A stretch of 64,000 nt of DNA from Pseudomonas silvicola. GTDB taxonomy: Bacteria; Pseudomonadota; Gammaproteobacteria; Pseudomonadales; Pseudomonadaceae. The position numbers and the translations under genes were made by a program. Below, in pieces: positions 32,889-53,459 of this stretch (its first letter is position 1; each line of letters begins with the position of its first letter). The stretch covers positions 3,078,001-3,142,000 of the forward strand of contig NZ_CP093280.1 in NCBI RefSeq assembly GCF_026651855.1. The letters run 5' to 3'. The notes beneath the pieces were generated by a model. It did not search any database, was not told the DNA's origin, and saw only the letters and a program-made list of their open reading frames with translations.

Positions 32889-32917
32889 ACGTTAGCTGAC
32901 AGTATGTCAGCTAACGT
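32889..32917. promoter_or_regulatory. Predicted TetR operator 1 (perfect 13-3-13 palindrome)
   Basis: ACGTTAGCTGACA, spacer GTA, then TGTCAGCTAACGT: arms fully complementary. It lies 24 bp from the dehydrogenase start and 64 bp from the divergent isochorismatase-like start. It is the best-conserved member of a set of six matching TAGCTGACA-N3-TGTCAGCTA. Confidence 0.8.
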
Positions 32918-32980
32918 TATCTAAGTGTGTTTCTACAATCCCGTTTTTCGTACGCTGAAAGTGCCATCCAGGAGGTGATT

Positions 32981-33595
32981 ATGGTTAGAGGGTTCGAGCG
33001 ATCAAGACGCCCGGCGTTGTTGATCAGTGAATGCCAGCGCGGAGTGATCGACCCTTTGCTGAGTAGTTTTCCCGGCCTTGTCGAGCAGGTGCAGCAACGG
33101 GGCATCCTGCCTCGCATCGGCGTGTTGGCCGACCGCTTTCGCAAGGCCGGCTTACCGGTGATTCACCTGCATGTGGTGCATAAACCTGATTACGCGGACG
33201 TGCCGAAAACCAGTGTGATCATCGTTCGCTCAATCCGGGATCAACGCATGCGTGAAGGGATGGAAGATGTGTTGGCCGTGGATGAAATGCGCCCTCTACA
33301 GGACGACATCGTTCATGCGCGCGGGTTTAGTCTGGTGGCGTTCCACGGTACTGATCTTGATGCCATGTTGCGTCATATGGGCGTGCAGACTCTGGTGCTG
33401 GCCGGAGTTTCGACCAACGTCGCCATCTCCGGTACGGCACTGTGCGGTTCGGATTTGGGTTATCAGGTGTTGATCCCCGAGGACTGTATCGCAGGGGCCA
33501 GCGAAGAGACTCACGCCTTTATCGTGCAAAACCAGTTGCCGCTGTACAGCACAATCACCGACAGCCAGACGCTCATCGATGCGCTGAACGATTGA
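32981..33595 (+). CDS. Isochorismatase-like protein with substituted catalytic residues
   Basis: The 204-aa product starts at ATG 32981 behind GGAGGTG. It has the isochorismatase/cysteine-hydrolase fold: ALLISECQRGV at residue 12, LVAFHGTDLDAMLRHMG near 115 and LAGVSTNVAISGTAL near 140. The usual triad is not seen: the Asp of LxxxDxQ is Glu, and the nucleophile Cys position in GVSTNxx is Ala. It may therefore be a non-hydrolytic homologue, or use other residues. Its 3' end overlaps that of the convergent crotonase gene by 23 bp. It belongs to the TetR-palindrome regulon; its role there is unknown. Confidence 0.8.
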   Translation: MVRGFERSRRPALLISECQRGVIDPLLSSFPGLVEQVQQRGILPRIGVLADRFRKAGLPVIHLHVVHKPDYADVPKTSVIIVRSIRDQRMREGMEDVLAVDEMRPLQDDIVHARGFSLVAFHGTDLDAMLRHMGVQTLVLAGVSTNVAISGTALCGSDLGYQVLIPEDCIAGASEETHAFIVQNQLPLYSTITDSQTLIDALND

Positions 33596-34331
33596 GTACC
33601 TCAGCCAGCAGCGATTGAGTGTGAGGGGAGGCGAGTTGGGCGATGAACACCTCGTTTTCCTCCTCGATCACCGCCCTCAGTTCAGCGAGGATCTGCTTTC
33701 GCATCATCCGCCGAGTCAGTCGCGCGGCTTGGTCGGGGAGTTCGATCAGGCGCTGTGCATGGGTCATCGCTGCGTTGATGCACGCTTGGCCGGTGATGAC
33801 ACATTCGCTGGCCAGCCCCCACTCCAACGCCTGCGCCCCGGAAATGGTTTCACCCAGCACCAGCAAATGCGCGGCGCGGGCATGGCCGAGCAGTTGGGGC
33901 AGGAGCAGTGAGGAGCCGAATTCGGGGGTCAAACCCAGTTTTACGAAAGGGGTACGCAGTTTCGCGTCATGGGTTGTGACGACGTGATCGCAGTGCAACA
34001 ACAAGGTGGTGCCAATGCCAATCGCAGGTCCGCAAACGGCCGCAATCAGCGGTTTATCGAGCTCGATCACGGCATGCATGAAGGTGAATGCAGGGCTTGA
34101 CTGATGAGTGGGCGGCGCCTGAACAAAGTCGTGTAGATCGTTGCCTGCCGTGAAGCATTGCTCGGAGCCTCGCACGATGACTGTCTTGATGTGCGCGTCG
34201 GCGTTGATCTGGCGCAGCCGCTCCGCCAGTTGCAGGTACATCGCATTGGTCAGGGCGTTGAGTTTTTCGGGGCGATCTAGCGTGAGAACCGCGATGCCGT
34301 TCTGCTGCTCATAGCGAATCGGCTCACCCAT
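33573..34331 (-). CDS. Enoyl-CoA hydratase/isomerase-family protein (ECI-like)
   Basis: This crotonase-fold protein (252 aa from ATG 34331) has oxyanion-hole segments CFTAGNDLHDF near residue 65 and CGPAIGIGTTLLLHCD near 105. The single Glu in TPFVKLGLTPEFGSSLLLP near 135 is the pattern of delta3-delta2-enoyl-CoA isomerases. The chosen start begins MGEPIRYEQQNGIAVLTLDR; the longer frame adds non-family residues. Its start overlaps the end of the aconitase-B-like gene by 8 bp, indicating translational coupling. It is third in the operon with the amidohydrolase. Confidence 0.88.
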   Translation of the reverse strand: MGEPIRYEQQNGIAVLTLDRPEKLNALTNAMYLQLAERLRQINADAHIKTVIVRGSEQCFTAGNDLHDFVQAPPTHQSSPAFTFMHAVIELDKPLIAAVCGPAIGIGTTLLLHCDHVVTTHDAKLRTPFVKLGLTPEFGSSLLLPQLLGHARAAHLLVLGETISGAQALEWGLASECVITGQACINAAMTHAQRLIELPDQAARLTRRMMRKQILAELRAVIEEENEVFIAQLASPHTQSLLAEVLNRSAHR

Positions 34332-34623
34332 GGGCAGCGCGTTCCGTTTTGGCCTCAAGCATGCGTTGGGCCGTGGCGGGGCCAATCAGATTGCAGCGTG
34401 GTGAGCCCTCTACGATTGACTGCAGGAAGGCGTGCTTGAGCGCCTGACTGCGAACGTCGTGCCCAACGTGCTGTTCAAACAGGGCTATCAGGACCGGCTC
34501 CTCAAACGCGGGCGGGTGTTCGAGCAGGAGCAGCAATGCCGCGACCTGCTCTGGCGTCAAAGGACGAGGCTGGACACCCTCGCTATCACATTGGGCAAGG
34601 TGGCACTGGTAGTCATAGAGCAT
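34324..34623 (-). CDS. Free-standing aconitase-B N-terminal (HEAT-like) domain protein
   Basis: The 99-aa product aligns from its first residue with the N-terminal domain of aconitate hydratase B. It shares the pattern MLxxYxxHxA...EGxxPxPL...QxAALxxLL, PPAxEE, AFLxxI and GPATAQRML near its end. AcnB itself is about 860 aa; here the catalytic swivel and iron-sulfur domains are absent and nothing upstream or downstream encodes them, so this is a domain on its own, not a truncated gene. In AcnB this segment mediates dimerisation and iron-dependent RNA binding. GGAG lies 7 nt before the ATG. It sits between the amidohydrolase and crotonase in one operon. Its role here is unknown. Confidence 0.8.
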   Translation of the reverse strand: MLYDYQCHLAQCDSEGVQPRPLTPEQVAALLLLLEHPPAFEEPVLIALFEQHVGHDVRSQALKHAFLQSIVEGSPRCNLIGPATAQRMLEAKTERAAHG

Positions 34624-34716
34624 GGTCAGTCTCCTGGACGGTTCTCATCAAGGACTCGCATCTAGCCCTGACGCACAAGAACTGACGGCAGGCGTCGGCC
34701 CTTGTGCGTCGGCTAA

Positions 34717-36051
34717 TCAGGCGTTTTCGGCGGTGAGTTTGCCGTCTTCCTGAGAGACCTTGGTGAACATGGCGATGATGTCGCCGGAGGTCACGCAGCG
34801 GCGTGTTTCGCCTTCAGCCAAGGGCGCCGGGCCACCGTAGGACTTGGCGCTGGTGTCGACATGACGAGCCTGATTGCGAAGCGCCGACACGGTGCAGTTT
34901 TCCCGCCCGCCCATCATGGCGAAGGCATCGAAGCTATACAGGCGCAGCGCGTTGCCGTGGGTGATCTTGTCGATACTGCGCTGTGGCAGCCCTTGCAGTG
35001 AGTTGAGCAGCATGTCTGCCGATTCGGGCCAGATCGTGTCCGAGTGGGGGTAGTCGCACTCGTAGGCGACGTTGTCTTCGCCGATCTCATCGAGGTTTTT
35101 GATGCCGAAGCGGTCGTCGATGAAGCAGGTCAGGAAGTGCTCGCGGAACACCTCGCTCGGCTTCTTCTTGCCAAAGTCAGCGTAGGTCCAGGCCTTGTGA
35201 TGCTCGTGTACAAAATCGGCACGTTCAAGGAAGTACGGAATCCAGCCGATGCCGCCTTCGGACAGCGCGATCTTAAGGTCCGGGTAGCGTTGCAGCGCCT
35301 TGAGGTGCAGCCAGTCGGCTGCCGAATTGACGATGGAAATCGGCATGGTCACGATCCAGGCATCGATCGGTGATTGTTGCGAGGCGTGGGGGGCTTGGGC
35401 GCCTGAGCCGATGTGAATGTTGATCATGACCTTATTTTCGGCGCACACCTTCCACAGAGGTTCCCAGTGCGCATCATGAATGCTGGGTTGGCCCTTCAGA
35501 GACGGGTTGTCCGAGAACGAGATGGCGTGACAGCCCTTGGCGACCACGCGCTTGATTTCCGCGACTGTGGCATTGATGTCCCAGTAGGGCACGATGGCGT
35601 TGGGAATGTTGCGCCCTGGGTAACTGCCACACCACTCATCGATGTGCCAATCGTTGTAGGCGCGTAGTAGGGTCAGCGCGTTTTGTTTGTTGTCGAACTG
35701 ATGAAACAGGCTGCCGTCGAACGTGACGACACTGGGGAAGTTGATCGAGGCCAGCAGGCCATTGGCATTCATGTCCTCGATACGCGCATCGATGTCCCAC
35801 GCGCCTTTGCGCATCTGATCGAAGGAAATGGGTTCGCACCCGTACTCCTCACGTAAGCGGCCGACCACGGCATTGAGACCAATGTTGCCGGCGCGACGCC
35901 CCTCGAAGAGCCAGTAGTCGGCACCGTTCTTGTCCTTCAACACTCGGGGGGCGAAGGCTTTTTGCGCCGTGGTCAGGTGTTGTTCGAACATCGTCGGCGG
36001 CTCGACAATGTGGTCGTCAACGCTCACCAGAATCAGGTCATCCAGTTTCAT
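34717..36051 (-). CDS. Amidohydrolase-family (ACMSD-like) TIM-barrel protein
   Basis: The 444-aa protein opens with LILVSVDDHIVEPPTMFEQHL, the metal-binding DxH of the amidohydrolase_2 group. Further ligand-bearing segments follow: INIHIGSG (His) near 220, ALSEGGIGWIPYFLERAD near 275, and YECDYPHSDTIWPES (Asp) near 340. This group contains decarboxylases and hydrolases such as ACMSD and resorcylate decarboxylase. Close relatives are common in actinobacterial steroid and terpenoid clusters, though their reactions are mostly unproven. It leads the operon with the AcnB-like and crotonase genes, 125 bp downstream of a TetR-type palindrome. A 10-bp inverted repeat (34670-34710) lies after its stop. 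Confidence 0.85.
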   Translation of the reverse strand: MKLDDLILVSVDDHIVEPPTMFEQHLTTAQKAFAPRVLKDKNGADYWLFEGRRAGNIGLNAVVGRLREEYGCEPISFDQMRKGAWDIDARIEDMNANGLLASINFPSVVTFDGSLFHQFDNKQNALTLLRAYNDWHIDEWCGSYPGRNIPNAIVPYWDINATVAEIKRVVAKGCHAISFSDNPSLKGQPSIHDAHWEPLWKVCAENKVMINIHIGSGAQAPHASQQSPIDAWIVTMPISIVNSAADWLHLKALQRYPDLKIALSEGGIGWIPYFLERADFVHEHHKAWTYADFGKKKPSEVFREHFLTCFIDDRFGIKNLDEIGEDNVAYECDYPHSDTIWPESADMLLNSLQGLPQRSIDKITHGNALRLYSFDAFAMMGGRENCTVSALRNQARHVDTSAKSYGGPAPLAEGETRRCVTSGDIIAMFTKVSQEDGKLTAENA

Positions 36052-36175
36052 GCACTGTCTCCATCGCTCAAGCCGTCTCGGGTTCCGCTGGCAGGCGGGC
36101 AGGTTCTGGACGGCTAGGGTTTTTGTTGTATGCGAAGCCCAACGTTACTACTACTGTGAAGCGGGTTCAATACAA

Positions 36176-36196
36176 TAACAGACATAATGTCAGTTA
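36176..36196. promoter_or_regulatory. Predicted TetR operator 2
   Basis: TAACAGACA-TAA-TGTCAGTTA, one mismatch between arms, in the gap upstream of the amidohydrolase operon. Same architecture as the other five sites of the set. Confidence 0.7.
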
Positions 36197-36213
36197 ATGG
36201 GTTGTTGTTGAGC

Positions 36214-37455
36214 TCAGGCAGCGACTGTCGTCGACAATTCCTTGAGACTGACGCACTCGTCACCCAGATGCGTGGCAATGCCCCTGGCAGACGCCTGCAC
36301 CAGCTTTTTGATAGCGGCAAACTCTTGCATGCGGTTAATGCAGTCGGCAGCGATCAGCGTATCGCCGCGTAGATAAAACGCGACGAAGGAGTGCAGGGCA
36401 ATGGAGCCGCGAATCACCACCTGATCGTAACCCTGGCTCAAGCCTGCGATTTGCAGCTTGAGGTCGTATTGGTCCGACCAGAACCACGGCGCTGCAGGCG
36501 GCACAGTGGGTTTTCCGGTCAGGGCCAGTGCAAGGTTGCGGGCGTGTTCGCTGGCGTTGGGAATGGACTCCAGCCGCACATGGCGTTGGTAGCGGCTGCT
36601 GAATCGATTGCAGCAATCGCCCACTGCGTAGACACCGGGCATGACCTGCCCGGTGTGTTCGTCAGCCAGAATGCCGTTATCGATTGGGAGTCCGGATGCT
36701 GCGGCCAATTCAACGTTAGGCTGCGCACCAATGCCCACTAGCATCAGATCGGCAGCGATCCGTTCGCCGGTGGCTGTGACCAGCTCGCAAACATTGCCCG
36801 CATCGTCCAGTTGCACACCGTCCAGCTGTGTATCCAGCCGTAGGTCGACACCTGCGGCACGGTGCACATGGGCATAGAAATGTGACACCTCAGTGGCCGT
36901 AACCCTGGCCAGCACCCGCTCCTGGGATTCCAGCACGGTAACCCTGAGACCTCGCTGCACGGCGGCGGCTGCGACTTCAAGGCCGATGTAGCCGCCACCG
37001 ACAATCACCAGTCGCTGTCCTTCGCGCCACTGGCTGCGCAGGCCCGTTGCATCCTGCACGTGACGAAGGTAGTGCAGGTTCGCAGCGCGGTGTTGCCCCA
37101 AACCCCTCAGTTGCAAGGGGCGAGGGCTGCACCCGGTGGCGAATACCAGTTGGTCGAACTGCAGGGGTGGCTGACCTTCCAGATGCACTTCGCGGTTCGC
37201 GGTGTCGACCCGCAGGGCGCGGGTGTCCAGCCGCAATTCGATACCCGCTTGAGCGTAGGCACTTTGCGGGCGGATTTCGCTCGCCTGCGGATCGCTGGCC
37301 AGCAGAAACGCTTTTGACAGCGGCGGGCGCTGGTAGGGCAGGTGCGCCTCATCGCCAATCAGGACAATGCGCCCTGTATAACCTTGCTGTCGCAATGCGA
37401 TGGCGGTTTCGCTGCCCGCATGACCTGCGCCAATGATCGCCGTCAGATGTGTCAT
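36214..37455 (-). CDS. FAD-dependent rubredoxin/ferredoxin reductase
   Basis: The 413-aa pyridine-nucleotide-disulfide-type reductase starts at ATG 37455 behind GGAGG. It carries the FAD motif IIGAGHAGSETAIALRQQG (residues 6-25), the NAD(P) motif VIVGGGYIGLEVAAAAVQRG near 150 and the second FAD motif GVYAVGDCCNR near 275. The C-terminal domain is like that of putidaredoxin and rubredoxin reductases. It lies 17 bp after a rubredoxin gene, its evident electron acceptor. The pair delivers electrons from NAD(P)H to an oxygenase; none is encoded in this window. Confidence 0.9.
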   Translation of the reverse strand: MTHLTAIIGAGHAGSETAIALRQQGYTGRIVLIGDEAHLPYQRPPLSKAFLLASDPQASEIRPQSAYAQAGIELRLDTRALRVDTANREVHLEGQPPLQFDQLVFATGCSPRPLQLRGLGQHRAANLHYLRHVQDATGLRSQWREGQRLVIVGGGYIGLEVAAAAVQRGLRVTVLESQERVLARVTATEVSHFYAHVHRAAGVDLRLDTQLDGVQLDDAGNVCELVTATGERIAADLMLVGIGAQPNVELAAASGLPIDNGILADEHTGQVMPGVYAVGDCCNRFSSRYQRHVRLESIPNASEHARNLALALTGKPTVPPAAPWFWSDQYDLKLQIAGLSQGYDQVVIRGSIALHSFVAFYLRGDTLIAADCINRMQEFAAIKKLVQASARGIATHLGDECVSLKELSTTVAA

Positions 37456-37472
37456 GGCATCCTCCATTTGGC

Positions 37473-37640
37473 TCAGGCCATTTCCAGCATGGCGAAGTCT
37501 TCTTTGGTGGCTCCGCATTCAGGGCATAGCCAGTCCTCAGGCACCTCGGCCCATGGGGTGCCAGGGAGGATGCCGTCGTCCGGCATGCCCAAGGCTTCGT
37601 CATAAATAAAGCTGCAGAAAAAACATTGCCACTTCTTCAT
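37473..37640 (-). CDS. Rubredoxin
   Basis: A 55-aa protein beginning [20 protein letters not shown] contains both iron ligands pairs, CFFC at residues 6-9 and CPECG near 39-43, plus the conserved [12 protein letters not shown] segment between them. It binds one iron by four cysteines and carries single electrons. It is shorter than the usual gene-finding cut-off. It sits directly upstream of its reductase and downstream of the MaoC and SDR genes in one operon. AlkG-type rubredoxins serve AlkB hydroxylases, but no AlkB is present here. Confidence 0.92.
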
Positions 37641-37701
37641 TGTTCACACCTTGTCGATGCTTGTTGTTATAGAGGCTGCACACACGGTTTTGACCATCGT
37701 T

Positions 37702-38202
37702 TCACGCCAGATTGGCTCGACCTTTCACCAGGCGCAGGGGGCTGTAAACCATGACGACGCTTCCGTCTTGCTTGACCACCTGATTGCGGGTTCGCACCAG
37801 ACCCATACCGGGCCTGCCTTTGCTAGGCCGCGCTTCTATGACTTCAACTTCAACGTGTAGGGTATCGCCTGCGAAGCTAGGCCCCTTGATGTCCATTTCC
37901 ATGTTCAGGAACGCCACGCCAACGCCCTGCAGGGCGGTCTGGAACAACAGCCCCTCAGCGATGCAGAACACCTGCGCGCCCGGAACCAGACGCCCGTCGA
38001 ACCCGGCCTCCTGACGAAATTCTGCATTGGTGAACAGCACTTCGAGCATGCCAGTCACTGATATGAAATTGACGATGTCGGCATCGGTCAGGGTGCGGCC
38101 ATAGGTGCGGAAACGACGGCCGACAGGCAGGTCCTCCCAAGGGAAGCCGGTGCCAATGACTTCCAGCACAGTATTGCTCGACACCTGTTCATTGATCGTC
38201 AT
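37702..38202 (-). CDS. MaoC-like dehydratase (hot-dog fold)
   Basis: The 166-aa protein is a short MaoC-family protein: FPWEDLPVGRRFRTYGRTLTDADIVNFISVTGM at residues 18-50 corresponds to the typical GxxxxxxRTITEADIxxFxxxTGD. GRLVPGAQVFCIAEGLL occupies the position of the HGxxxxxL helix, with Pro-Gly in place of the canonical His-Gly. The ATG at 38202 overlaps the SDR stop as TGATG, so the two are coupled. It may hydrate an enoyl-CoA or act as a structural partner. The longer upstream frame overlaps the SDR and is rejected. Confidence 0.85.
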   Translation of the reverse strand: MTINEQVSSNTVLEVIGTGFPWEDLPVGRRFRTYGRTLTDADIVNFISVTGMLEVLFTNAEFRQEAGFDGRLVPGAQVFCIAEGLLFQTALQGVGVAFLNMEMDIKGPSFAGDTLHVEVEVIEARPSKGRPGMGLVRTRNQVVKQDGSVVMVYSPLRLVKGRANLA

Positions 38203-39104
38203 CACAGTGGGTCCCATGTCGTGAGCTGCGGGGAAGGGATGTTGTCGTAGAACGAGTTTTGCATCGCCGGAATCGCGTGTTCGGCAATGCTCTGTGGTGT
38301 CCAGCCATCGCTGCGGTGCACCGAGCGAATCACCCGTGACTGCGAGAACAGGTAGATTTCGTTGGCGCGCACGCCAAATATCTGCCCGGAAACCCCGCCC
38401 CCGGCATCGCTGGCCAAGTAGACCGCCAGCGGGGCGATCTTGGCCGGCTCCATGGTTTTCAGCTTTTCCATCCGCGCCGCAGCTTCCGGCGTGTCGGTGG
38501 GGACCGATGCTGTCATGGCTGTCCATGCCCAAGGCGCAATGCAGTTCGAGCGCACGTTATAACGGGCCATGTCCAGTGCAATGCTTTTGGACAAACCCAC
38601 AACGGCCATTTTCGCTGCGGAGTAATTGGCCTGGCCGGGGTTGCCAATCAGCCCGCTGGTGGAGGTCATGTGGATGTACGCGCCGCTGTTCTGCTCCTTG
38701 AAGTAACAGGCTGCGGCACGCGCGACGTAGAACGAGCCATTGAGATGTACATCCATTACGGCCTGCCATTCTTCAAGGCTCATCTTAAAAAAGAACCGGT
38801 CCCGGACAATACCGGCGTTGTTCACGACGCAATCGATCCGGCCAAAATTGTCCAGCGCTGCCTGAACAATGTGTTGTGCGCTGTCCCATTGCGACACGCT
38901 GTCGGTGCTGGCAACGGCCTCGCCACCCTGATTGCGAATCTGCGCAACGACCTGTTCGGCAGCGCTGTGGCCGTCGCTGTCCCGGCCAAGATCATTGACC
39001 ACGACCTTCGCCCCTTGCGCCGCGAACCCCAGCGCAAATGCCTTGCCAATACCACTTCCGGCCCCGGTGATTACCACGACCTTACCTTCGACCATACCTG
39101 ACAT
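38202..39104 (-). CDS. MFE-2-like SDR, (3R)-hydroxyacyl-CoA dehydrogenase type
   Basis: The 300-aa protein has TGAGSGIG near residue 12, the long insertion VVNDLGRDSDGHSAAEQVVAQI that distinguishes peroxisomal multifunctional enzyme type 2 dehydrogenases, NNAG near 95, the catalytic Ser in MTSTSGLIGN and YSAAK near 160. It should oxidise (3R)-hydroxyacyl-CoA with NAD. ATG 39104 has GGAGG at 5 nt. It leads the operon SDR-MaoC-rubredoxin-reductase and lies 66 bp from a TetR-type palindrome shared with the divergent TetR gene. The C-terminal 60 residues extend beyond a minimal SDR, as in the MFE-2 group. Confidence 0.88.
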   Translation of the reverse strand: MSGMVEGKVVVITGAGSGIGKAFALGFAAQGAKVVVNDLGRDSDGHSAAEQVVAQIRNQGGEAVASTDSVSQWDSAQHIVQAALDNFGRIDCVVNNAGIVRDRFFFKMSLEEWQAVMDVHLNGSFYVARAAACYFKEQNSGAYIHMTSTSGLIGNPGQANYSAAKMAVVGLSKSIALDMARYNVRSNCIAPWAWTAMTASVPTDTPEAAARMEKLKTMEPAKIAPLAVYLASDAGGGVSGQIFGVRANEIYLFSQSRVIRSVHRSDGWTPQSIAEHAIPAMQNSFYDNIPSPQLTTWDPL

Positions 39105-39170: not shown

Positions 39171-39191
39171 TAACTGTCAATATGTCAGCTA
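39171..39191. promoter_or_regulatory. Predicted TetR operator 3 (also autoregulatory)
   Basis: TAACTGTCA-ATA-TGTCAGCTA lies between the divergent SDR operon and the TetR gene. The right arm is a perfect consensus half-site; the left has two mismatches. Its position implies control of the operon and possible autoregulation. Confidence 0.7.
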
Positions 39192-39372: not shown

Positions 39373-40122
39373 ATGGCTTACGATGTCACGATGAATAAGC
39401 AAGGGCAGGTGCTGGGCCGCAAAGGCCAGGAAACCCGCCACAAATTGATGATGGCAACCCGCAGATTGCTCTTTACCCACCCGCTGGTCGATATCACGGC
39501 GGTCGCGATCGCTAAAGCCGCCGGTACCTCGTCCGCGAGCTTTTACATGTACTTCGACGACGTCCAGGACGTGCTGTACGCCTTGGGGCTGGTGGCCAAC
39601 GAAGACATGGCCGAGGTCGCCAAGTTGCTCGAAACGCCTTGGGCACCCGGAACGTTCGAAAAGGAAGCGCTGGTGCTGATTGAAGCGCTGAATGCGGTCT
39701 GGAGCCGTCATCGGGAAGTACTGCGCTATCGCAATCTGGAAGCGGACCGAGGCGACCCACGCTTCGACGAGTTGCGCATGAACACCTATATCCCGTTCAT
39801 CGAGCGTTTCGCCAAGCTGATCCTGGCCGTCAACCCTGCCGAGGGCGGGCGCAAGCGCGGCGACGCTTACGCAGAAGCAACCGCACTGCATGCCTCCATG
39901 GAGAGGATGGCCGCGACCGACCCCGTGTTGATGGAGCGTGGTTTGGGCGCCAAGCGGGTGAATGCGGCGATTGCGCGAATTATCGCGCAGACTTTGCGGG
40001 GTTCGAATGAAGAGCCGGTTGTGCCCGTCACCACCGCCACACCGGCAGCCGCCAAGGCGCGTCGTGCCAAGGCAACGCCAGAATCTTCAGAGGCTGTTCC
40101 CGCGCCCCAGAATCAAGAATGA
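39373..40122 (+). CDS. TetR-family transcriptional regulator, probable master of the 30-54 kb regulon
   Basis: The 249-aa protein carries an N-terminal TetR helix-turn-helix at about residues 18-65 (GRKGQETRHKLMMATRRLLF, ITAVAIAKAAGTSSASFYMYF). It is followed by a helical ligand domain and an Ala/Pro/Lys-rich C-terminal tail. ATG 39373 follows GAGGGG at 8 nt. It is divergent from the MFE-2-like SDR operon with a 21-bp palindrome in between; five matching palindromes stand before the other operons. It is the only regulator between 30 and 54 kb. The ligand is probably an acyl-CoA intermediate, as for KstR-type regulators; that is inference. Confidence 0.9.
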   Translation: MAYDVTMNKQGQVLGRKGQETRHKLMMATRRLLFTHPLVDITAVAIAKAAGTSSASFYMYFDDVQDVLYALGLVANEDMAEVAKLLETPWAPGTFEKEALVLIEALNAVWSRHREVLRYRNLEADRGDPRFDELRMNTYIPFIERFAKLILAVNPAEGGRKRGDAYAEATALHASMERMAATDPVLMERGLGAKRVNAAIARIIAQTLRGSNEEPVVPVTTATPAAAKARRAKATPESSEAVPAPQNQE

Positions 40123-40141: not shown

Positions 40142-40984
40142 TCAGTCCAGGGGATCGAAATGCGCGACCCCCTGGCTGAGCACGGGCTGGTCGCGCTCCA
40201 CGGCGTGCAGGCGGAACACAACCTGGCCCGCCGTGATATGCCACAGCTCAAGGCGCATGGTTTCATCGGTGTACATGGGGCCTGCGTAACGCACGGCGAT
40301 TTTCTTCAGTCGTTGCGGGTGATTGTCACAGCTCAGGGCAATCACACCTCGCCCGGCGAGACCAAAACACCCCAACCCACGAATCATGATCTTCTCTGTG
40401 CCTTTGCCGATATTGATGTCGGCGTTCAAGCGAAACGCCGAATGCGGATCCTGCGGCGTTTTGATTTCGATTGTCGCGTCGGCAGCGCGTTGTGGAATCG
40501 GCGCCAGATGTGGTCGGTTGTTTGGTTGCCCGCCGAAGCCGCCGTTACCGCGCAACAACGTACTGACCTCGATACTGGCGATCGGTCCCTGTGCGTCACT
40601 CAATTCTAAGTTCTGGAGCATCTGGGCACCTTTATCGCTGCCCCGGTCGAAAATGTCCGCCACTTTTTGCGTCACCCGTACCCGGCCTGAGCTGGGCAGC
40701 GGCCGATGCAATGCCAGGCTTTCCTGCACGTGTACCAATTGCCGCCAGTCGATACCGGTGGCCGGATCTTGCTGCCAGAACTCACCATCGGCCAAGGCTA
40801 CGGCCGCCATGGGTAACGCCTGCAGCGTGGTGTCCGGACGCAAATACGGTGCGTCGACGGTCGCCCACGCGCTGTCAACGCCGGCACCGAATCCCTTGGC
40901 GAAGTGGACCAGGTCTTGGGTAGTGTAATCTCGATCAATGGGCGGGAAGGGCCAGGCCATCAGTTTTGCGTAGTCAAGCGGCAT
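40142..40984 (-). CDS. MaoC/hydratase-2-like protein lacking the active-site motif
   Basis: The 280-aa protein is a paralogue of the hydratase at 41869, sharing the same length, double-hot-dog layout and N-terminus (MPLDYAKLMAWPFPPIDRDY versus SLDYQKIKDWPLPQTRHTY). Where the neighbour has YRLSGDSNPLHIDP and the following PILHG, this protein reads FRLNADINIGKGTEKIMIRG. The catalytic His and the whole HIDPxFA stretch are missing and the sequence is shortened there. It ends 19 bp from the convergent TetR gene. GGAG lies before the ATG. It may form a heteromer with the intact paralogue, as in ChsH1-ChsH2 of cholesterol catabolism. Confidence 0.88.
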   Translation of the reverse strand: MPLDYAKLMAWPFPPIDRDYTTQDLVHFAKGFGAGVDSAWATVDAPYLRPDTTLQALPMAAVALADGEFWQQDPATGIDWRQLVHVQESLALHRPLPSSGRVRVTQKVADIFDRGSDKGAQMLQNLELSDAQGPIASIEVSTLLRGNGGFGGQPNNRPHLAPIPQRAADATIEIKTPQDPHSAFRLNADINIGKGTEKIMIRGLGCFGLAGRGVIALSCDNHPQRLKKIAVRYAGPMYTDETMRLELWHITAGQVVFRLHAVERDQPVLSQGVAHFDPLD

Positions 40985-41054
40985 CTTGCACTCCGGGGCA
41001 AATGCAGGGCGTTAGGGGAGTGAGCGTTGCCGCCTGAGCGGCAACGCACGACGG

Positions 41055-45083: not shown

Positions 45084-45650
45084 ATGCAGGAAGATGATGC
45101 GCTGACCCGGCGTTACAGGGAAATCTTGCTTGAGATTGGCGAAGACCCTCGACGTGAGGGGTTGCTGGATACTCCGAAGCGTGCTGCCAAGGCCATGCAG
45201 TATTTGTGCAACGGTTATGGCAAGACCGTCGAGGCGCTGGTCAACGGCGCGCTGTTTGCGTCTGACACCGACGAGATGATCATCGTCAAGGACATCGAGT
45301 TGTATTCATTGTGCGAACACCATCTGCTGCCCTTTATTGGCAAGGCTCATGTGGCCTACATGCCGACGGGCAAGGTGCTGGGGCTGTCCAAGGTCGCGCG
45401 GATCGTCGACATGTTCGCCCGCCGTTTGCAGATCCAGGAGAACCTGACGCGCCAGATTGCCGAGTCTTTGCGTGACGTTACTCAGGCGGCGGGTGTCGCG
45501 GTGGTGATCGAAGCCCGGCACATGTGCATGATGATGCGCGGCGTTGAAAAGCAGAACTCAGTGATGACGACCTCGGTGATGCTGGGCGCTTTTCGCGAGT
45601 CCAGTAGTACGCGGCAGGAGTTTCTGCAGCTGATTGGAGGCGGACGATGA
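45084..45650 (+). CDS. folE: GTP cyclohydrolase I
   Basis: The 188-aa FolE-type enzyme converts GTP to 7,8-dihydroneopterin triphosphate. Zinc and active-site elements are visible: [20 protein letters not shown] near residue 78, [20 protein letters not shown] near 110 and [16 protein letters not shown] near 150. AAGGA lies before ATG 45084. It is 59 bp after the thiolase stop and overlaps the next gene by ATGA. Housekeeping FolE copies are usually elsewhere, so its place in a catabolic operon suggests induced pterin supply. Confidence 0.95.
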
Positions 45651-46018
45651 AAGCGCTCGGCAGTACCACTGCACGGATCCAGATCAAGAACCTGCGATTG
45701 CGAACCTACATCGGCATCAACGAAGAGGAGATCCGTAATCGTCAGGATGTGGTGATCAACCTGGTGCTCGAATACCTCGCCGATCAGGTGACCCACAGTG
45801 AATCCATCGAACACGCGGTGAACTATCGCACGCTGACCAAGGCGGTGATCCGCCATGTAGAGCGCAACCGTTTTGGACTGCTGGAGCGTCTGGCGCAGGA
45901 AGTGCTGGACGTGCTGATGAACCATCCTCAGGTATCGCTGGCGCAGGTCGAGATCGACAAACCCCATGCCTTGCGGTTTGCCGACTCGGTGTCGGTGACG
46001 CTCTGCGCGATGCGCTGA
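45647..46018 (+). CDS. folX: Dihydroneopterin triphosphate 2'-epimerase (FolX-type)
   Basis: The 123-aa protein matches FolX more closely than Fol[15 protein letters not shown]-like start, [40 protein letters not shown] and [13 protein letters not shown]. FolX epimerises dihydroneopterin triphosphate to the monapterin form, the precursor of tetrahydromonapterin used by bacterial phenylalanine hydroxylase. Its start overlaps the folE stop (ATGA). The reductase FolM, which completes the cofactor, is not among the SDRs in this window. It ends 57 bp from a convergent dehydrogenase gene. Confidence 0.92.
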
Positions 46019-46075: not shown

Positions 46076-47125
46076 TCAGTCCAGTGGTCGGGTGACGCGC
46101 TGCCACAGGGTCGCACCCTCTGCGGCCAGGGTGTTACGCCCCAGATACTCCGCCCAATAATGTTCGCTGCCACCCTCGGCACGCCACTGCCACAGCCGAC
46201 GCGTGAAGTAGTGCAAACTGTGTTCATCGGTCACCCCAATGGCGCCGAAAATCTGGTGGGCGATTTCCGTCATGCGGGTCGCGGCACGGCCTGTGAGGCT
46301 CTTGGCGATGGCTGCGCCATATTCCGCGCGATCGGCGTCGATCTGACGGGCTGCGTATAACCCGGCAACCTGGGCTGCTGCCGTGTGTTCCGCTAGCTCG
46401 GCGACGTACTGCTGGATCGCCTGAAATTTGCCCAGTGTTTTCCCGAACTGAATGCGCGTTCCAGCGTACTCCAGACAGAGGTCGAGCACCTGCTCCATGG
46501 CACCGGCCATCTGGATGGCCCGTAATGCCGCCAGATAAGGGCGTAAATCAGCACCCTTTAGCCAAGGCACCGACCGCGCTAGCGTGACCGGCTGACCCTT
46601 CAATTTCAGCGCGCCAGCGGGCATGCGGTCATAGGTTGGGGTAGCGGTTGCCAGTTCGCTGTCGATGCTCACCAGGCAGAGGCTGGGTTGTTCGACCGTG
46701 CCCGCCAGAAGCACCACATGGCGGACTGCTGGTGACCAGGACAGCTGCTGATCCACTCCGTGCACACGCCCCTGGGCATCGAGTTCAAAACGCTCGGCTG
46801 AAAATGTCATCGGGCCGTCCGGCACTGCGATGCCTGCACGGTCGAGCAAACCGCTGGCGATCACGCTTTCGCCCAATGGAATGGGGGCTGCATAGCGTCC
46901 ACACAGGCGCAAGGTCTGTTCCATATCACGCCAGGACATTTCGGCGCCGCCGGTGGATTCGCTGCACATGGCCAAGGGAATGCCCATTGCCACCAGCGAC
47001 TGCCACAGCTCGGTGTCAAACTGTCCTTGTTCACTGGCTACCCAACTGTCACGGGAAACGGCGTCGGCAAACAGCCTGTTCACCTGATGGGCCATCATCT
47101 CGCTAATGTTCATTTCGTCGCTCAT
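46076..47125 (-). CDS. Acyl-CoA dehydrogenase family protein, small subunit type
   Basis: The 349-aa protein is a divergent acyl-CoA dehydrogenase. It has a weak N-terminal domain, no SEPxxGSD signature in the middle, and a recognisable C-terminal FAD region (RIQFGKTLGKFQAIQQYVAE near 235, HQIFGAIGVTDEHSLHYFTR near 300). Shortened, motif-poor subunits of this kind pair with a regular subunit in alpha2beta2 steroid dehydrogenases such as ChsE1-ChsE2. Its start overlaps the stop of the regular subunit gene by ATGA, supporting a stoichiometric complex. Confidence 0.88.
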   Translation of the reverse strand: MSDEMNISEMMAHQVNRLFADAVSRDSWVASEQGQFDTELWQSLVAMGIPLAMCSESTGGAEMSWRDMEQTLRLCGRYAAPIPLGESVIASGLLDRAGIAVPDGPMTFSAERFELDAQGRVHGVDQQLSWSPAVRHVVLLAGTVEQPSLCLVSIDSELATATPTYDRMPAGALKLKGQPVTLARSVPWLKGADLRPYLAALRAIQMAGAMEQVLDLCLEYAGTRIQFGKTLGKFQAIQQYVAELAEHTAAAQVAGLYAARQIDADRAEYGAAIAKSLTGRAATRMTEIAHQIFGAIGVTDEHSLHYFTRRLWQWRAEGGSEHYWAEYLGRNTLAAEGATLWQRVTRPLD

Positions 47126-48282
47126 TTCAGGCCCAGCCCCTTGGCCGTGATACCGCGCAATATTTCCCGGGTGCCTCCGCGCAACGAGAAGCTGGGAACG
47201 GTGTGCACCAGGAACCCCAATAGTTCGCTGAGCGTGTTGCCCTTGACCACCGTGGCGGGAGGGTCCAGCAGTTCGCGCACCAGCTCTGGCATGCGCTGCT
47301 CATGCAGGTTGCCAAGATCCTTGACCAGCGCCGCTTCGCGGGAAGGCGAATGGCCGTCGACCAGTTGCCCGAGTATCGACAATGACATCTCCCTGAGGAT
47401 GACCAGCTCGGCCTCGGCTTCACCCAGTCGCCGGGCTACCATGCGCTCCTGCGGGCCAGCGGCGCGCAAGGCGTCGACCGTCAATGGCAGCAACGGGTAG
47501 GCACTCATGTAGCGATCCGGCTGGCTGCGTTCGAAGGCCAGTTCCGCGCTGGCTTGCGCCCAACCGTCGCCTTCCTGTCCCACCAGCATGTCATCCGGCA
47601 CGAACACGTCGTCAAATGTGACCTCGTTGAAATGAGCCTCGCCGGTCAGGTCTTTGATCGGTCGCACCTCAATCCCTGAGCTGCGCATGTCGATCAAAAA
47701 CTGCGACAACCCTTTGTGTTTTTCTACTTCCGCCGGGCCGCCGCTGCGAAACAACCCGATCATGAAATCGCAGAGGTGTGCGTTGGTGGTCCAGACCTTG
47801 CGCCCGTTGAGGCGCCATCCACCCTCCACGCGACTGGCACGTGATCGCAGGGAGGCCAGGTCGGAGCCTGCGTCAGGTTCGCTCAAGCCAATACAAAATG
47901 ACGCTTCACCTTTGGCGATCATCGGTAGAAACCGCTGGCGTTGCGCCTCGCTGCCGAGTCGCAGCAGCAAGGGCCCGCTCTGGCGATCACCAAACCAGTG
48001 AGCGCCGAGGGGGGCGCCGGCCGCGAGCATTTCTTCGACGACCACATAGCGCTCAAGCCCAGAGCGCTCATGCCCGCCGTATTGACGTGGCCAGGTCATG
48101 CCGATCCAGCCACGCTGTCCGACTTGTCGACTGAATTCTCGATCAAAGCCAGTCCACGAGTGGCCTATTTGCCAGCCGGACCACTGGCTCGATGCGTCCG
48201 CGAGAAAGCGCCTGACGTCCTGGCGCAATGGTTCGAGCCGTGCGGGAATTTCCAGGGGCCTGAAATTAAACAGTGCTGACAT
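47122..48282 (-). CDS. Acyl-CoA dehydrogenase, large subunit type
   Basis: The 386-aa protein has the full architecture: FCIGLSEPDAGSDLASLRSRAS near residue 130, GRKVWTTNAHLCDFMI near 160 and a C-terminal domain ending SLRGGTREILRGITAKGLGL. GAGGA lies 7 nt before the ATG. It is translationally coupled to the smaller, motif-poor subunit gene and together they probably form a heteromeric FAD dehydrogenase. It follows a CoA-transferase gene by 10 bp in a five-gene operon. Confidence 0.92.
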   Translation of the reverse strand: MSALFNFRPLEIPARLEPLRQDVRRFLADASSQWSGWQIGHSWTGFDREFSRQVGQRGWIGMTWPRQYGGHERSGLERYVVVEEMLAAGAPLGAHWFGDRQSGPLLLRLGSEAQRQRFLPMIAKGEASFCIGLSEPDAGSDLASLRSRASRVEGGWRLNGRKVWTTNAHLCDFMIGLFRSGGPAEVEKHKGLSQFLIDMRSSGIEVRPIKDLTGEAHFNEVTFDDVFVPDDMLVGQEGDGWAQASAELAFERSQPDRYMSAYPLLPLTVDALRAAGPQERMVARRLGEAEAELVILREMSLSILGQLVDGHSPSREAALVKDLGNLHEQRMPELVRELLDPPATVVKGNTLSELLGFLVHTVPSFSLRGGTREILRGITAKGLGLK

Positions 48283-48292
48283 GCCCGTTTCC

Positions 48293-49528
48293 TCAAATAA
48301 CGTGGTTGCAACGCAAATCGCTGATCTGCTCAGGGGAGAGGTTCAGCCATTGACTCAGCACTTCGTCGGTGTGCTCACCGACCGTGGGAGGTGCGTAGGT
48401 GTACTGCACCGGAGTCGCTGAAAAGCGCATGGGGCTCGCTGCCGAGCGAATCGTTCCGTTGAGTGGGTGGTGCTGGGTGACGATCGACTCCCTGGCCTTC
48501 ACATGGGGGTCTCGTTCCAGATCGGCCATGTCGTTGATCGGTCCGCACGAGACCGTGTTGGCGTTCAGGTGTTCGATCCATTGATCTTTGCTGCGCCCAC
48601 GCAACGCTTCAGTCAACTGCCGTGACAGCTCGCTACGATAAGCGACCCGTGCGGCGTTCCGCGCGAACCGCGGATCGTCGATCCAGTCTGCGCGCCCGAC
48701 GGCGTTGGCCAGGCGTACAAATTCGCGGTCGTTGAACGTGGCCACCAGGATGTAGCCATCGTCCACCGCGTACACCCCATAAGGCGAGGCGCTGGGGTGG
48801 TCGTTGCCGGTACGGCCCAGTTCCTTGCCGCCGTTGAACCAGGCCGAAAACGTGTTGAGCAACGTCGCCATCTGAGCATCCATCAGCGACACATCGATGT
48901 GCTGGCCGACGCCGCTGGCGTGGCGGTGGTTGAGCGCGCCCAGGACGCCAATCGCCGCGTACAGACCCGCGCAGACGTCCGCGACCGGGATGCCCACGCG
49001 CATCGGCCCTTCGCCGTCTTCGCCGGGGCGGTGGCCGGTGACCGACATGACGCCCGCCATGGCCTGGATCAGGTAGTCATACCCGGACCGCTCGGCGTAG
49101 GGGCCGGTCTGGCCAAACCCGGTGATCGAACAGTAGATCAGGCGTGGATTGATCTTGCTCAGTTCCTCGTAGCCCAGCCCGTAGCGCGCCAGCGTGCCGG
49201 TGCGGTAATTCTCCAGCAGTACGTCACAGCTTTCGGCGAGCTGTCGAATCAGCTCCTGACCTGCAGGCTGCGCGAAGTCGATGGCGATCGATCGCTTGTT
49301 GCGGTTAGCGGCCTGGCTGTAGGTCGACTCTTGATGGGCCTGGCCTTCGGTGCCGCTGATCCAGGGCGGGCCGATGCGGCGAATGTCGTCGCCTTCGCCC
49401 TGGCGTTCTATCTTGATGACCTCGGCGCCCATGTCGCCCAGGATTTGCCCCGCGAAAGGTCCGGCGACCACACGGGTCATGTCCAGCACGCGAATGCCCG
49501 ACAGTGCTTGTGGATGTGGGTTGTGCAT
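48293..49528 (-). CDS. CaiB/BaiF-family (type III) CoA-transferase
   Basis: The 411-aa protein shows the family start LSGIRVLDMTRVVAGPFAGQ (residues 9-28), AEVIKIERQGEGDD, the catalytic Asp in VSLMDAQMATLLNTF near 220, and RYGLGYEELSKINPRLIYCS. It moves CoA between carboxylates and thereby activates the pathway acid without ATP. ATG 49528 follows GAGGG at 8 nt; the track back to 49747 would overlap the SDR gene. BaiF-type members act on bile acids, carnitine, formate or aromatic acids, so the substrate is open. Confidence 0.92.
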   Translation of the reverse strand: MHNPHPQALSGIRVLDMTRVVAGPFAGQILGDMGAEVIKIERQGEGDDIRRIGPPWISGTEGQAHQESTYSQAANRNKRSIAIDFAQPAGQELIRQLAESCDVLLENYRTGTLARYGLGYEELSKINPRLIYCSITGFGQTGPYAERSGYDYLIQAMAGVMSVTGHRPGEDGEGPMRVGIPVADVCAGLYAAIGVLGALNHRHASGVGQHIDVSLMDAQMATLLNTFSAWFNGGKELGRTGNDHPSASPYGVYAVDDGYILVATFNDREFVRLANAVGRADWIDDPRFARNAARVAYRSELSRQLTEALRGRSKDQWIEHLNANTVSCGPINDMADLERDPHVKARESIVTQHHPLNGTIRSAASPMRFSATPVQYTYAPPTVGEHTDEVLSQWLNLSPEQISDLRCNHVI

Positions 49529-49539
49529 GGCGAACGCCC

Positions 49540-50313
49540 TCAGACAGTAATGGTGTAGCCGCCGTTGACCGACAGCACCTGGCCGGTGATGTAGGAGGCG
49601 CCTTCGCTGAGCAGGAAGCCGACAGGCACCGCAACTTCCTCGGGGCTTGCGAAGCGACCGAGTGCGATTTGTTGAAGGTAGGTGTCGAGAAATTTCGGGT
49701 CGCTGCGGACTTTCTCGGTCATAGCGGTTTCCACCATGCCGAAGCACACAGCGTTAGAACGAATGCCATAGCGCGCCCATTCCCGAGCGGCGGTCATGGC
49801 CATGCCGAACATGCCTGATTTCGCGGCAGAGTAGTTGATCTGCCCCAGGCTGCCGCGCCGCCCCGCGTCGGAGGAGATGAACACAATGGCGCCGGGGGCC
49901 TTGTCGCCGCTCTTGGCGCGTTCGATCAAATGCCGCCCCAGCGCCTGGGTGAACAGGAAGGACCCGGTAAGGTGCACCTCCAGTACTTGCTGCCATTGTT
50001 CGAGGGTCATTTTTTCGATCATCGCCGGGCGGCCGATGCCGGCGTTGTTGACCAGACCGTGCACGGCACCGAAGCGGGCGATGGATTGGGTGATGACCTG
50101 TTCGGCAAATTGCGCGTCGACCACGTTGCCCGCGAAAGGCAGGTAGCGTTCGCCCAGTTCTTGCGCAGCGGTCTGCAAGATGCCGGCGTCAAGATCGACC
50201 GCGGCGACGTTCGCACCTTGTGCCAGAACGAACCTGGCAATGGCCAGTCCGATGCCCTGGCCTGCGCCGGTGATGATGATCGTACGTCCCTGCAGGGACA
50301 TTGGATTGTTCAT
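49540..50313 (-). CDS. SDR-family oxidoreductase
   Basis: The 257-aa classical SDR carries TGAGQGIGLAIARFVLAQGA near residue 14, NNAGIGRPAMIEKM near 90, the Ser in VFISSDAGRRGS and YSAAK near 160, and ends SVNGGYTITV like FabG-type enzymes. It lies between the DUF35 gene (19 bp gap) and the CoA-transferase (11 bp gap) in the operon. It probably oxidises a hydroxyl group of a pathway acyl-CoA or free acid; substrate unknown. Confidence 0.9.
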   Translation of the reverse strand: MNNPMSLQGRTIIITGAGQGIGLAIARFVLAQGANVAAVDLDAGILQTAAQELGERYLPFAGNVVDAQFAEQVITQSIARFGAVHGLVNNAGIGRPAMIEKMTLEQWQQVLEVHLTGSFLFTQALGRHLIERAKSGDKAPGAIVFISSDAGRRGSLGQINYSAAKSGMFGMAMTAAREWARYGIRSNAVCFGMVETAMTEKVRSDPKFLDTYLQQIALGRFASPEEVAVPVGFLLSEGASYITGQVLSVNGGYTITV

Positions 50314-50332
50314 GTGTAGGGTCTGCCTTTTG

Positions 50333-50704
50333 TTATTCGAAGTGATCAGGGTCAAACACGACAAAGAACCGCTCGGCGTCGCGGTTGATCCGCGCACGGA
50401 CGCGCTGGCCGATCTTCACGCTGTCTGCGGGTGTGCATTCGACCCGACTCATCATTCGCGGGCCTTCCGCCAAATCCACCAGCACCACGTTGTAAGGTTC
50501 GGCAGGGGGCTTGGGACGGACCACGGTGATGGCGTAAACCGTGCCCAGACCGCTGGCCTGCACCCATTCGAGGTCCAGGGCGCCGGAACCCGGCTCAAGC
50601 GTGCGCGGGTAGAAAAAACAGCGCTGGCTGGCGCGGCTGCGCTGCAGCATGAAACGGCCTTGGGCCAGGTGTTCCTGAAATTCTGCGTCGGGTCGTAACG
50701 GCAT
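50333..50704 (-). CDS. DUF35 OB-fold protein, zinc-ribbon cysteines lost
   Basis: The 123-aa protein matches the DUF35/OB-fold acyl-CoA-binding family: GRFMLQRSRASQRCFFYPRT near residue 15, then LEWVQASGLGTVYAITVV and PYNVVLVDLAEGPRMMSRV. The family normally has a rubredoxin-like CxxC...CxxC ribbon in this part. Here only a single Cys is present, so zinc binding is unlikely. DUF35 proteins partner with SCPx/Ltp thiolases (for example ChsH2 with Ltp2); the thiolase at 43837 in the same regulon is the natural candidate. It opens the operon, 121 bp from a TetR-type palindrome. Confidence 0.85.
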   Translation of the reverse strand: MPLRPDAEFQEHLAQGRFMLQRSRASQRCFFYPRTLEPGSGALDLEWVQASGLGTVYAITVVRPKPPAEPYNVVLVDLAEGPRMMSRVECTPADSVKIGQRVRARINRDAERFFVVFDPDHFE

Positions 50705-50824: not shown

Positions 50825-50845
50825 TAACTGTCAAACAGTCAGCTA
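50825..50845. promoter_or_regulatory. Predicted TetR operator 5
   Basis: TAACTGTCA-AAC-AGTCAGCTA between the divergent DUF35 operon and the MFS gene. Extra partial half-sites (TAACTGACA at 50752-50760 region and TAGCTGATA/TCTCAGCTA near 50771-50794) suggest more than one bound dimer. Confidence 0.7.
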
Positions 50846-52152: not shown

Positions 52153-52163
52153 CCCGCAGAAAG

Positions 52164-52190
52164 AAAAAAAGCCCGCAGCGAGCTGCGGGC
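52164..52190 (-). terminator. Rho-independent terminator after the second amidohydrolase
   Basis: Stem GCCCGCAG/CTGCGGGC with a 4-nt loop (52171-52190), followed on the minus strand by a run of seven T (52164-52170). It sits between the convergent amidohydrolase and MFS genes and may also end the plus-strand transcript weakly. Confidence 0.85.
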
Positions 52191-52219
52191 CAAGAGGAGC
52201 GTGTCGTTAGCGTGGTGTT

Positions 52220-53410
52220 TCAGTCGCGGTGGCCTTCGAGCAGGCCCTTGAGGTTCGTGCTCATGATCAGTTGGGTGTCTTGCGGGCTGAGGTCTTCGAT
52301 GTCCTTGAAGAAATCCAGTGGATGAGTCAGCCCTTCAGGATGCGGCCAGTCGCTGCCAAACAGGATGCGATTGGCGCCGATCAACTCGATGACCTTGGAC
52401 ACTGGGTCTTCGTAGAACGGCGAAACAAAGACGTGTTTGCGGAATGTTTCGACGGGATCGCGCGTGAACGATTTGGGCATTTTCTTGTAGTTGTGCGCCA
52501 GGCGGCCCAGCAGCGGCTCAAGCCAGGATGAGCCGTTTTCCAGTGAGGCAACACGTACGTCCGGGAAACGGTCGAACACACCGTGGCAGATGAGGGCGGC
52601 CAGAGTGTCCGAGATCGCCCGGCCCATCCAGTCCAGGACTTCGCCGAAGACATCTTTTTCGAATGGGCGGAATTCCCCTTTGCCGCCCGCCGTCCACCAG
52701 CGATAGACCTTGTCGTAGCCAGAGTCGGAGACGTGCAGCATCACGAAGATCTTCGCTTCGTTGACGCGGGCCCAGAACGGGTCGAACTCGGTGAAGCCCA
52801 TCGAGCGACCGCCTTTGATCCCGGCCACCGGGGCAGGGCGTATGCCGACGACCCGTGCACCTGACTTAATCACGAACTCCAGCTCTTCGACGGCCTGGTC
52901 AACGTCGTAAAGGTTGATCATCGGCACCGGGAACAGTCGGTTATCCCGGGCAAACCCACAGTCTTCAGCCAGCCATTGGTTAGCGGAGTGGAACAGGGCA
53001 GCAATCGCTTCCGGTTTGTGCGCGAGGCGCTCTTCGATCACCGAACCCAGGGTCGGGATGAACAACCCGGCATGAATGCCTTGCTCGTCCATCACTTTCA
53101 GGTGTGCCTCACCGCTGTAGAAGGCTGGATCGGACGGGATCGGTTCACCGCCAATTTCACGCAGGGACAGTCCCTGCGGGTTGTCGCCGCGGTACCACTT
53201 CTCATGGGAGCCCGGTGCCGCTACGACGTCGAAGGTCGGGTTGGGGATGTAGTCGCTGATGATGCCGCCCACCGCCAGCTTCGTCCGACCGTTGATTTGC
53301 ACGTACTGGAAGTCCTTGCGGAACTCCTTGGGCAGATGCCGCAGGAAGGCTTCCGGCGGCTCGTAAAAATGGCGGTCAACATCGTAGATCGGGTAATTGA
53401 CGGCACTCAT
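52220..53410 (-). CDS. Amidohydrolase-family (ACMSD-like) protein, second copy
   Basis: The 396-aa TIM-barrel protein starts with YPIYDVDRHFYEPPEAFLRH (DxH variant with Arg-His), followed by FVMLHVSDSG (His) near 225, LICHGVFDRFPDVRVASLEN near 270 and ILFGSDWPHPEGLTHP (Asp) near 350. These are the metal-binding strands of amidohydrolase_2. It is only distantly similar to the copy at 34717. GGAG precedes the ATG. It is divergent from an SDR gene across a TetR-type palindrome and is transcribed alone to the terminator. Decarboxylase or C-C hydrolase activity is possible; nothing specific can be claimed. Confidence 0.86.
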   Translation of the reverse strand: MSAVNYPIYDVDRHFYEPPEAFLRHLPKEFRKDFQYVQINGRTKLAVGGIISDYIPNPTFDVVAAPGSHEKWYRGDNPQGLSLREIGGEPIPSDPAFYSGEAHLKVMDEQGIHAGLFIPTLGSVIEERLAHKPEAIAALFHSANQWLAEDCGFARDNRLFPVPMINLYDVDQAVEELEFVIKSGARVVGIRPAPVAGIKGGRSMGFTEFDPFWARVNEAKIFVMLHVSDSGYDKVYRWWTAGGKGEFRPFEKDVFGEVLDWMGRAISDTLAALICHGVFDRFPDVRVASLENGSSWLEPLLGRLAHNYKKMPKSFTRDPVETFRKHVFVSPFYEDPVSKVIELIGANRILFGSDWPHPEGLTHPLDFFKDIEDLSPQDTQLIMSTNLKGLLEGHRD

Positions 53411-53438
53411 GGAATGCTCCTTTTGGTTTTGTTGTTCA

Positions 53439-53459
53439 AAGCTGACGATATGTCAGCTA
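53439..53459. promoter_or_regulatory. Predicted TetR operator 6
   Basis: AAGCTGACG-ATA-TGTCAGCTA in the divergent gap between amidohydrolase (start 53410) and SDR (start 53541); the right arm is the perfect consensus half-site. It is the rightmost member of the set. Confidence 0.75.

Follow-up and report, generated by a model that had tools for sequence, protein, structure and literature searches.

A 64,000-nucleotide stretch of Pseudomonas silvicola DNA (the window; C1:3078001-3142000 of the 8.65-Mb genome) carries a 21-base palindrome at six promoter regions. With good confidence, we interpret these sites as the shared operators of one large catabolic regulon, with an adjacent and autoregulated TetR-family protein, TetR1, as their predicted binder and repressor. 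This reading is drawn from the conservation of the sites at orthologous promoters, their co-occurrence with TetR1 and the presence of a site in most TetR1 promoters. On these three lines of evidence, control by one TetR protein, as put forward in an earlier sequence-only reading (the original prediction), is the best-supported interpretation. That reading also took the regulator to be the single TetR protein of the system, which is true of the window but not of its surroundings: further downstream are two additional TetR genes, and the window itself also contains a MarR gene (Table 1).

All six palindromes named in the original prediction are present where it placed them, far above chance. Five fit TAGCTGACA-N3-TGTCAGCTA with at most three mismatches; 100 dinucleotide shuffles gave a mean of 0.01 matches and a maximum of one, never reaching five. 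The sixth, at 42797, fits the relaxed pattern WARCWGWCRNNNWGTCAGYTA, which was derived from the six window palindromes themselves. The common architecture claimed for the sites, a 3-base spacer with a TGTCAG-type right arm, was also recovered, as spacer 3 and GTCAG are found in all six, and at operator 1 the symmetry extends over 29 bases, the two 13-base arms matching perfectly. Their intergenic, mostly divergent placement was likewise borne out: divergent genes flank five of the six, whereas the site at 36176 lies between two minus-strand genes. Gene starts used for site-to-gene distances were chosen by script.

The operator set extends well beyond the window. Allowing at most two mismatches, the pattern occurs at 20 distinct places genome-wide, 16 of them inside C1:3110893-3186900 (76 kb) and 4 in the remaining 8.57 Mb; the reversed control pattern occurs at 12 places, none of them in the cluster. 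Since the pattern was defined by the six window sites, the independent part of this result is the 10 places found in the ~44-45 kb beyond the window. Many equally good matches inside unrelated genes, an outcome that would speak against a regulon, were not seen genome-wide at this stringency. With up to three mismatches the pattern (108 matches) falls below the control (163), so that only the better matches carry meaning. A matrix built from the six window sites alone found 17 sites scoring at least 15 in 132 kb, all within 32893-108900 (extended window coordinates, that is, C1 minus 3078000). These make up 14 promoter regions over ~76 kb with ~70 open reading frames (ORFs, counted by hand from ORF lists), and the six window sites are about a third of the 17. 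The earlier estimate of about 20 genes under control was therefore too low, the span being about three times larger. All 17 sites face a predicted gene start that is no more than 125 bases off on the nearer side, one of them touching it; distances to flanking gene starts span 0-262 bases. In three intergenic regions the sites come in pairs (75872/75988, 90912/91049 and 101569/101701).

Of 298 genomes drawn from the family, 8 besides our own carry a TetR1 orthologue (67-78% identity), making 9 in all. Operator conservation was compared in six of the eight (G131, G060, G146, G112, G288 and G223), and gene order in the cluster is broadly preserved in the four relatives compared gene by gene. The same six-site matrix gave 91 sites of at least 15 in the relatives' regions, 87 of them outside coding sequence, where the non-coding share is ~16% if the opening 40 codons of every ORF are counted as non-coding; base-shuffled versions of each region, three apiece, gave 0-0.33 sites of that score. 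Operators 2 (gap 112-123 bases), 3, 4 (52-53 bases before the hydratase) and 6 (31-33 bases before amidohydrolase 2) are kept in all six relatives, with almost constant gaps. Operator 1 has an orthologous site in G112 (17.6) and G223 (16.4), the only two regions with its gene pair, which was not found in the regions of G131, G060, G146 and G288. Operator 5 has a counterpart of at least 15 in three of the six (G146, G112 and G223). With the two orientations pooled, the consensus of 94 sites (score at least 17, seven genomes) is TAACTGACA-N3-TGTCAGTTA, with A2, T5, A7, G6 and their mirror columns the strongest.

Among the relatives are Pseudomonas taiwanensis, P. pseudonitroreducens, P. capeferrum, Stutzerimonas and Halopseudomonas, and from the Betaproteobacteria Herbaspirillum autotrophicum and an Azoarcus metagenome-assembled genome; Massilia putida and Azospirillum sp. 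B510 are represented by plasmids. TetR1 is present in 5 of 249 genomes of a genus draw, and a phylum-wide draw of 398 genomes returned none but our own at E 1e-25. A Sphingopyxis plasmid with a related short-chain dehydrogenase/reductase (SDR) has no matrix match of at least 11 in 30.8 kb.

TetR1 matches TetR_C_38 (PF19352; 29.8 bits, cut-off 23.9) and falls just below the cut-off for the TetR N-terminal domain (PF00440; 23.3 bits against 24, E 5.5e-5). Within its DNA-binding region, TetR1 residues 48-69 do not vary across an alignment of eight sequences, seven orthologues and our own. Site and regulator occur together: with at most one mismatch on both strands, the nine TetR1 genomes have 13, 6, 7, 6, 5, 5, 5, 6 and 6 matches, whereas the other 289 family genomes, which lack TetR1, have 0-3, and only TetR1 genomes reach five. 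The TetR1 gene itself is preceded by a site in all eight family orthologues (24.7-29.0), at 238-310 bases in seven of them and 181 bases in our own genome, and in all four further genus-search loci (L093-L096; 21.5-29.1), and thus in 12 of 12 orthologues outside our own genome. In the Betaproteobacteria, a site (15.4-22.5) lies upstream of the TetR1 gene in four of four cases. One Massilia copy stands in tandem behind an amidohydrolase, so that the site there can serve only the TetR gene, and the Massilia putida plasmid carries two TetR1 paralogues (L071:1623-2444 and 20001-20825) with an operator-like site upstream of each. The Azospirillum cluster, whose TetR1 is 51% identical, has sites of 21.6 and 19.8. 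A distant TetR1 paralogue is also encoded in our own genome at C1:4378380-4378907 (L038; 36% over 180 residues), with no site in its 3.5-kb locus.

We envision that a TetR1 dimer would bind operators of the TAACTGACA-N3-TGTCAGTTA type in the promoter of the TetR1 gene and in 13 further promoter regions, and that TetR1 bound on or beside the core promoters would block RNA polymerase. What the sequences show is the sites, their positions, their conservation and their co-occurrence with TetR1; binding, repression and control of every operon between the sites are predicted. The substrate, or more likely a coenzyme A (CoA) thioester made from it, would bind TetR1 and release it from the operators; by analogy with KstR-type regulators, the inducer is probably a pathway compound. 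Release would then allow joint expression of outer-membrane and RND transport, CoA ligases, several acyl-CoA dehydrogenases, hydratases and thiolase-like proteins, together with a 3-ketosteroid 9-alpha-hydroxylase-type Rieske protein, rubredoxin with its reductase, and folE-folX. The MarR protein, through a separate palindrome, would control a phosphotransferase branch inside the regulon. Promoter overlap suggests occlusion by the repressor: 10 of the 17 sites overlap a -35/-10-like pair (at most three mismatches) versus 76 of 300 low-GC control windows, and at 39171, 42797 and 50825 the departure from symmetry spells TTGACA on the minus strand, like a built-in -35 box.

Several observations weigh against this interpretation. 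The operator itself contains TGACA, so that the promoter overlap is just suggestive. Co-occurrence points no more to TetR1 than to other cluster genes. Operator 5 lacks a counterpart of at least 15 in G131, G060 and G288, the site in G060 lies 537 bases upstream of TetR1, and Azospirillum has no site of at least 11 within 450 bases upstream of its TetR gene. In our own cluster, the sites at 71746, 75988 and 101701 are weak (16.4-17.8), and the 60404/61389 gene pair, with a match of just 13.0, lacks a strong site of its own. The palindrome preceding the MarR gene shares TGACA/TGTCA arms with the 21-base site (spacing 6 versus 3), and the Massilia copy of the MarR-type palindrome also shares bases with a 21-base matrix match scoring 15.2; cross-binding is therefore possible.

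That the MarR protein binds the 21-base palindrome, with TetR1 as a passenger, is the strongest competing reading but nonetheless unlikely. Besides the common arms, its distribution speaks for it: MarR orthologues (65-72% identity) are found in all eight other TetR1 genomes, with just two weak matches (35-36%) elsewhere among the 298, and MarR is matched in 12 of 13 TetR1-bearing genomes or records. As strong orthologues occur in the same nine genomes, co-occurrence does not tell against MarR as binder, although the plasmid record pAB510b (the plasmid alone) has TetR1 and sites with no MarR match. Against this reading, in most pseudomonads MarR is preceded by a different palindrome, TGACAA-N4-TTGTCA, which lies directly upstream with at most one mismatch in seven of nine pseudomonad genomes and with two and three mismatches in the remaining two. 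No 21-base site of at least 11 stands at the MarR gene in our genome (scan threshold 9), whose 132-kb region contains TGACAA-N4-TTGTCA (at most one mismatch) exactly twice, at 58997 before MarR and at 54278 before the phosphotransferase gene. In G131, G060, G146, G112 and G288 a single such palindrome precedes MarR and the phosphotransferase gene follows directly after it; G223 has none within one mismatch. We therefore set MarR aside as binder on account of its own palindrome in pseudomonads, an argument that is weaker in two Betaproteobacteria: the Herbaspirillum (L073) and Azoarcus (L074) stretches have no MarR-type palindrome within one mismatch, and 21-base matrix matches (14.2 and 20.3) stand before MarR or before a gene run ending in MarR. 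The arrangement reads as a nested MarR circuit, predicted to act on the phosphotransferase branch through its own palindrome. The phosphotransferase gene is also found in the Massilia, Herbaspirillum and Azoarcus stretches, and with its acyl-CoA dehydrogenase pair (window 54397-57583) presumably resembles the LvaA/ACAD10-11 route for 4-hydroxyacyl-CoA.

The two downstream TetR proteins, TetR2 (C1:3154805-3155425) and TetR3 (C1:3184983-3185546), also lie inside the cluster, and TetR proteins bind palindromes of this kind; yet we consider either of them a very improbable binder. TetR2 is matched in 8 and TetR3 in 6 of the 13 TetR1-bearing genomes or records, two of which are plasmid records only, and the TetR3 matches are just 41-43% identical. 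No palindrome common to the genomes is visible upstream of TetR2, and TetR3 is the last gene on its strand, with the next gene on the opposite strand. Both are disfavoured by this patchy distribution and by having no site of their own. TetR1 might instead act at the sites as an activator or dual regulator rather than a simple repressor, as the paired sites and the wide range of site-to-start distances would allow; the overlap of several sites with promoter-like hexamers and the rarity of activators in the TetR family make this quite unlikely. That the palindromes arose by chance or belong to a dispersed repeat finds an echo in the three-mismatch counts, where the pattern is no commoner than its reversed control, but the shuffles, the clustering within the genome and the conservation at orthologous promoters leave this a negligible prospect.

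PsrA, FadR, LiuR and AtuR are TetR repressors encoded near the fatty-acid or branched-chain genes that they control, acyl-CoA-type metabolism as here, but they have other operators and smaller regulons. A closer likeness is found in the KstR regulon of mycobacteria, where a TetR repressor has a palindrome in its own promoter and its motif, TnnAACnnGTTnnA, recurs in 16 and 31 other intergenic instances in two species, with 74 and 83 genes predicted to be controlled (PMC1995591). The own-promoter palindrome, one motif at many promoters and the many sites between divergent genes are common to both, and the 17 sites in 14 promoter regions over 76 kb fit such a large multi-operator catabolic regulon. 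The operators differ in length and arms, TnnAACnnGTTnnA in KstR versus TARCTGWCA-N3-TGWCAGYTA, 21 bases, here (from the 94-site consensus). Among 39 matches of TetR1 to solved structures up to E 1, which include EthR, DesT and others, no chain is named KstR, though some are generically named, and a profile search for KstR homology gave nothing at 1e-5. TetR1 is thus predicted to work like KstR but is not KstR by sequence or operator. The system would be a Gram-negative counterpart to the KstR design, with no new regulatory principle. Among the papers listed by searches of an open-access library, we recognised none describing the cluster, its substrate or its operator. The sites outline, in a form that can be tested, how a rare catabolic cluster of Pseudomonas relatives may be wired; the operator could serve as a genome-mining tag and biosensor part, and derepression of TetR1 would offer a direct route to the substrate.

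Table 1. Predicted operators, regulators and gene groups of the cluster, in window coordinates
Feature	Position	Strand	Context
Operator 1	32889..32917 (core 32893-32913)		Between acyl-CoA dehydrogenase (30553-32865, -) and isochorismatase-like gene (32981-33595, +)
Operator 2	36176..36196		124 bases upstream of amidohydrolase 1 (34717-36051, -); tandem, not divergent
Operator 3	39171..39191		Between SDR (38202-39104, -) and TetR1 (39373-40122, +); proposed autoregulatory site
Operator 4	42797..42817		Between MaoC-type hydratase (41869-42738, -) and SDR (42948-43811, +)
Operator 5	50825..50845		Between OB-fold protein (50333-50704, -) and MFS transporter (50902-52152, +)
Operator 6	53439..53459		Between amidohydrolase 2 (52220-53410, -) and SDR (53541-54275, +)
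TetR1	39373..40122	+	Proposed regulon repressor; TetR_C_38 above cut-off, TetR_N just below
MarR-family regulator	59007..59534	+	Strong orthologues in the same nine genomes; own palindrome
Second palindrome, TGACAATGTGTTGTCA	54278..54293		Upstream of phosphotransferase gene (54397); proposed MarR site
Second palindrome, TGACAATCTATTGTCA	58997..59012		Upstream of MarR gene; proposed MarR autoregulatory site
Minus-strand block	34324..39104	-	AcnB N-terminal-domain protein (34324-34623), amidohydrolase (34717-36051), ferredoxin reductase (36214-37455), rubredoxin (37473-37640), MaoC-like protein (37702-38532), SDR (38202-39104)
Hydratase operon	40142..42738	-	MFE-2-type hydratase, enoyl-CoA hydratase, MaoC-type hydratase; behind operator 4
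folE-folX operon	42948..46018	+	SDR, lipid-transfer/thiolase-like protein, folE (45078-45650), folX (45647-46018); behind operator 4
Acyl-CoA dehydrogenase group	46076..50704	-	Two acyl-CoA dehydrogenase-like proteins, CoA-transferase, SDR (49540, named by reading), ChsH2-type OB-fold protein; behind operator 5

Of the ~71 cluster ORFs, 34 were searched against family libraries and the others named by reading their translations, as was the MaoC-like ORF at 37702-38532, whose start is uncertain. The cluster encodes CoA ligases, paired and fused acyl-CoA dehydrogenases, MFE-2 and MaoC hydratases, SDRs, CoA-transferases, lipid-transfer/thiolase-like proteins with OB-fold partners, two amidohydrolases and an epoxide hydrolase, as well as a KshA-type Rieske protein, a PF10118 protein, rubredoxin with its reductase, and folE-folX. 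Its transport set is of the DUF1302/DUF1329/YCF48/MMPL kind; the DUF1302, DUF1329 and RND genes, at C1:3169195-3175944 behind operators 90912/91049, resemble the DUF1302, DUF1329 and RND transporter set AmeABCD of Castellaniella defragrans, a monoterpene exporter for which the accessible part of the report gives no link to a TetR1-type regulator (PMC6394551). From this gene content we infer a hydrophobic, alicyclic substrate, terpenoid- or steroid-like. Steroid degradation proper was considered and set aside: a KshA-type Rieske protein is present, but no steroid ring-cleavage dioxygenase gene was seen on reading the ORF lists (34 of ~71 ORFs searched against families), and we therefore do not call the substrate a steroid.

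The substrate and the pterin genes are the points most worth following. folE lies in the cluster in all six pseudomonad relatives and folX in five of them, and in Massilia (L089:16337) and Herbaspirillum (L073:13077) folE stands alone as a unit of one gene, and the operator-like sites immediately before it are common to it and a divergent operon. We tentatively entertain the possibility of a regulon with its own pterin synthesis, serving a pathway spread across three proteobacterial classes that would need a tetrahydropterin cofactor, with the co-conserved rubredoxin and PF10118 protein as perhaps a new type of oxygenase. The PF10118 "metal-dependent hydrolase" itself (C1:3149778-3150659; L025:8778-9659) is 77-82% conserved in six relatives, with rubredoxin and its reductase in the same cluster, and we speculate that it may be an unrecognised oxygenase.

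The AcnB-like gene listed in the original prediction does match aconitase B, but as a free-standing N-terminal domain of only 99 residues (PF11791, 50.6 bits). Homologues of this domain (33-41% identity) are placed elsewhere in the regions of G223, G288, G060 and G131, near operator-like sites of 15.2-17.7 in three of these four relatives.

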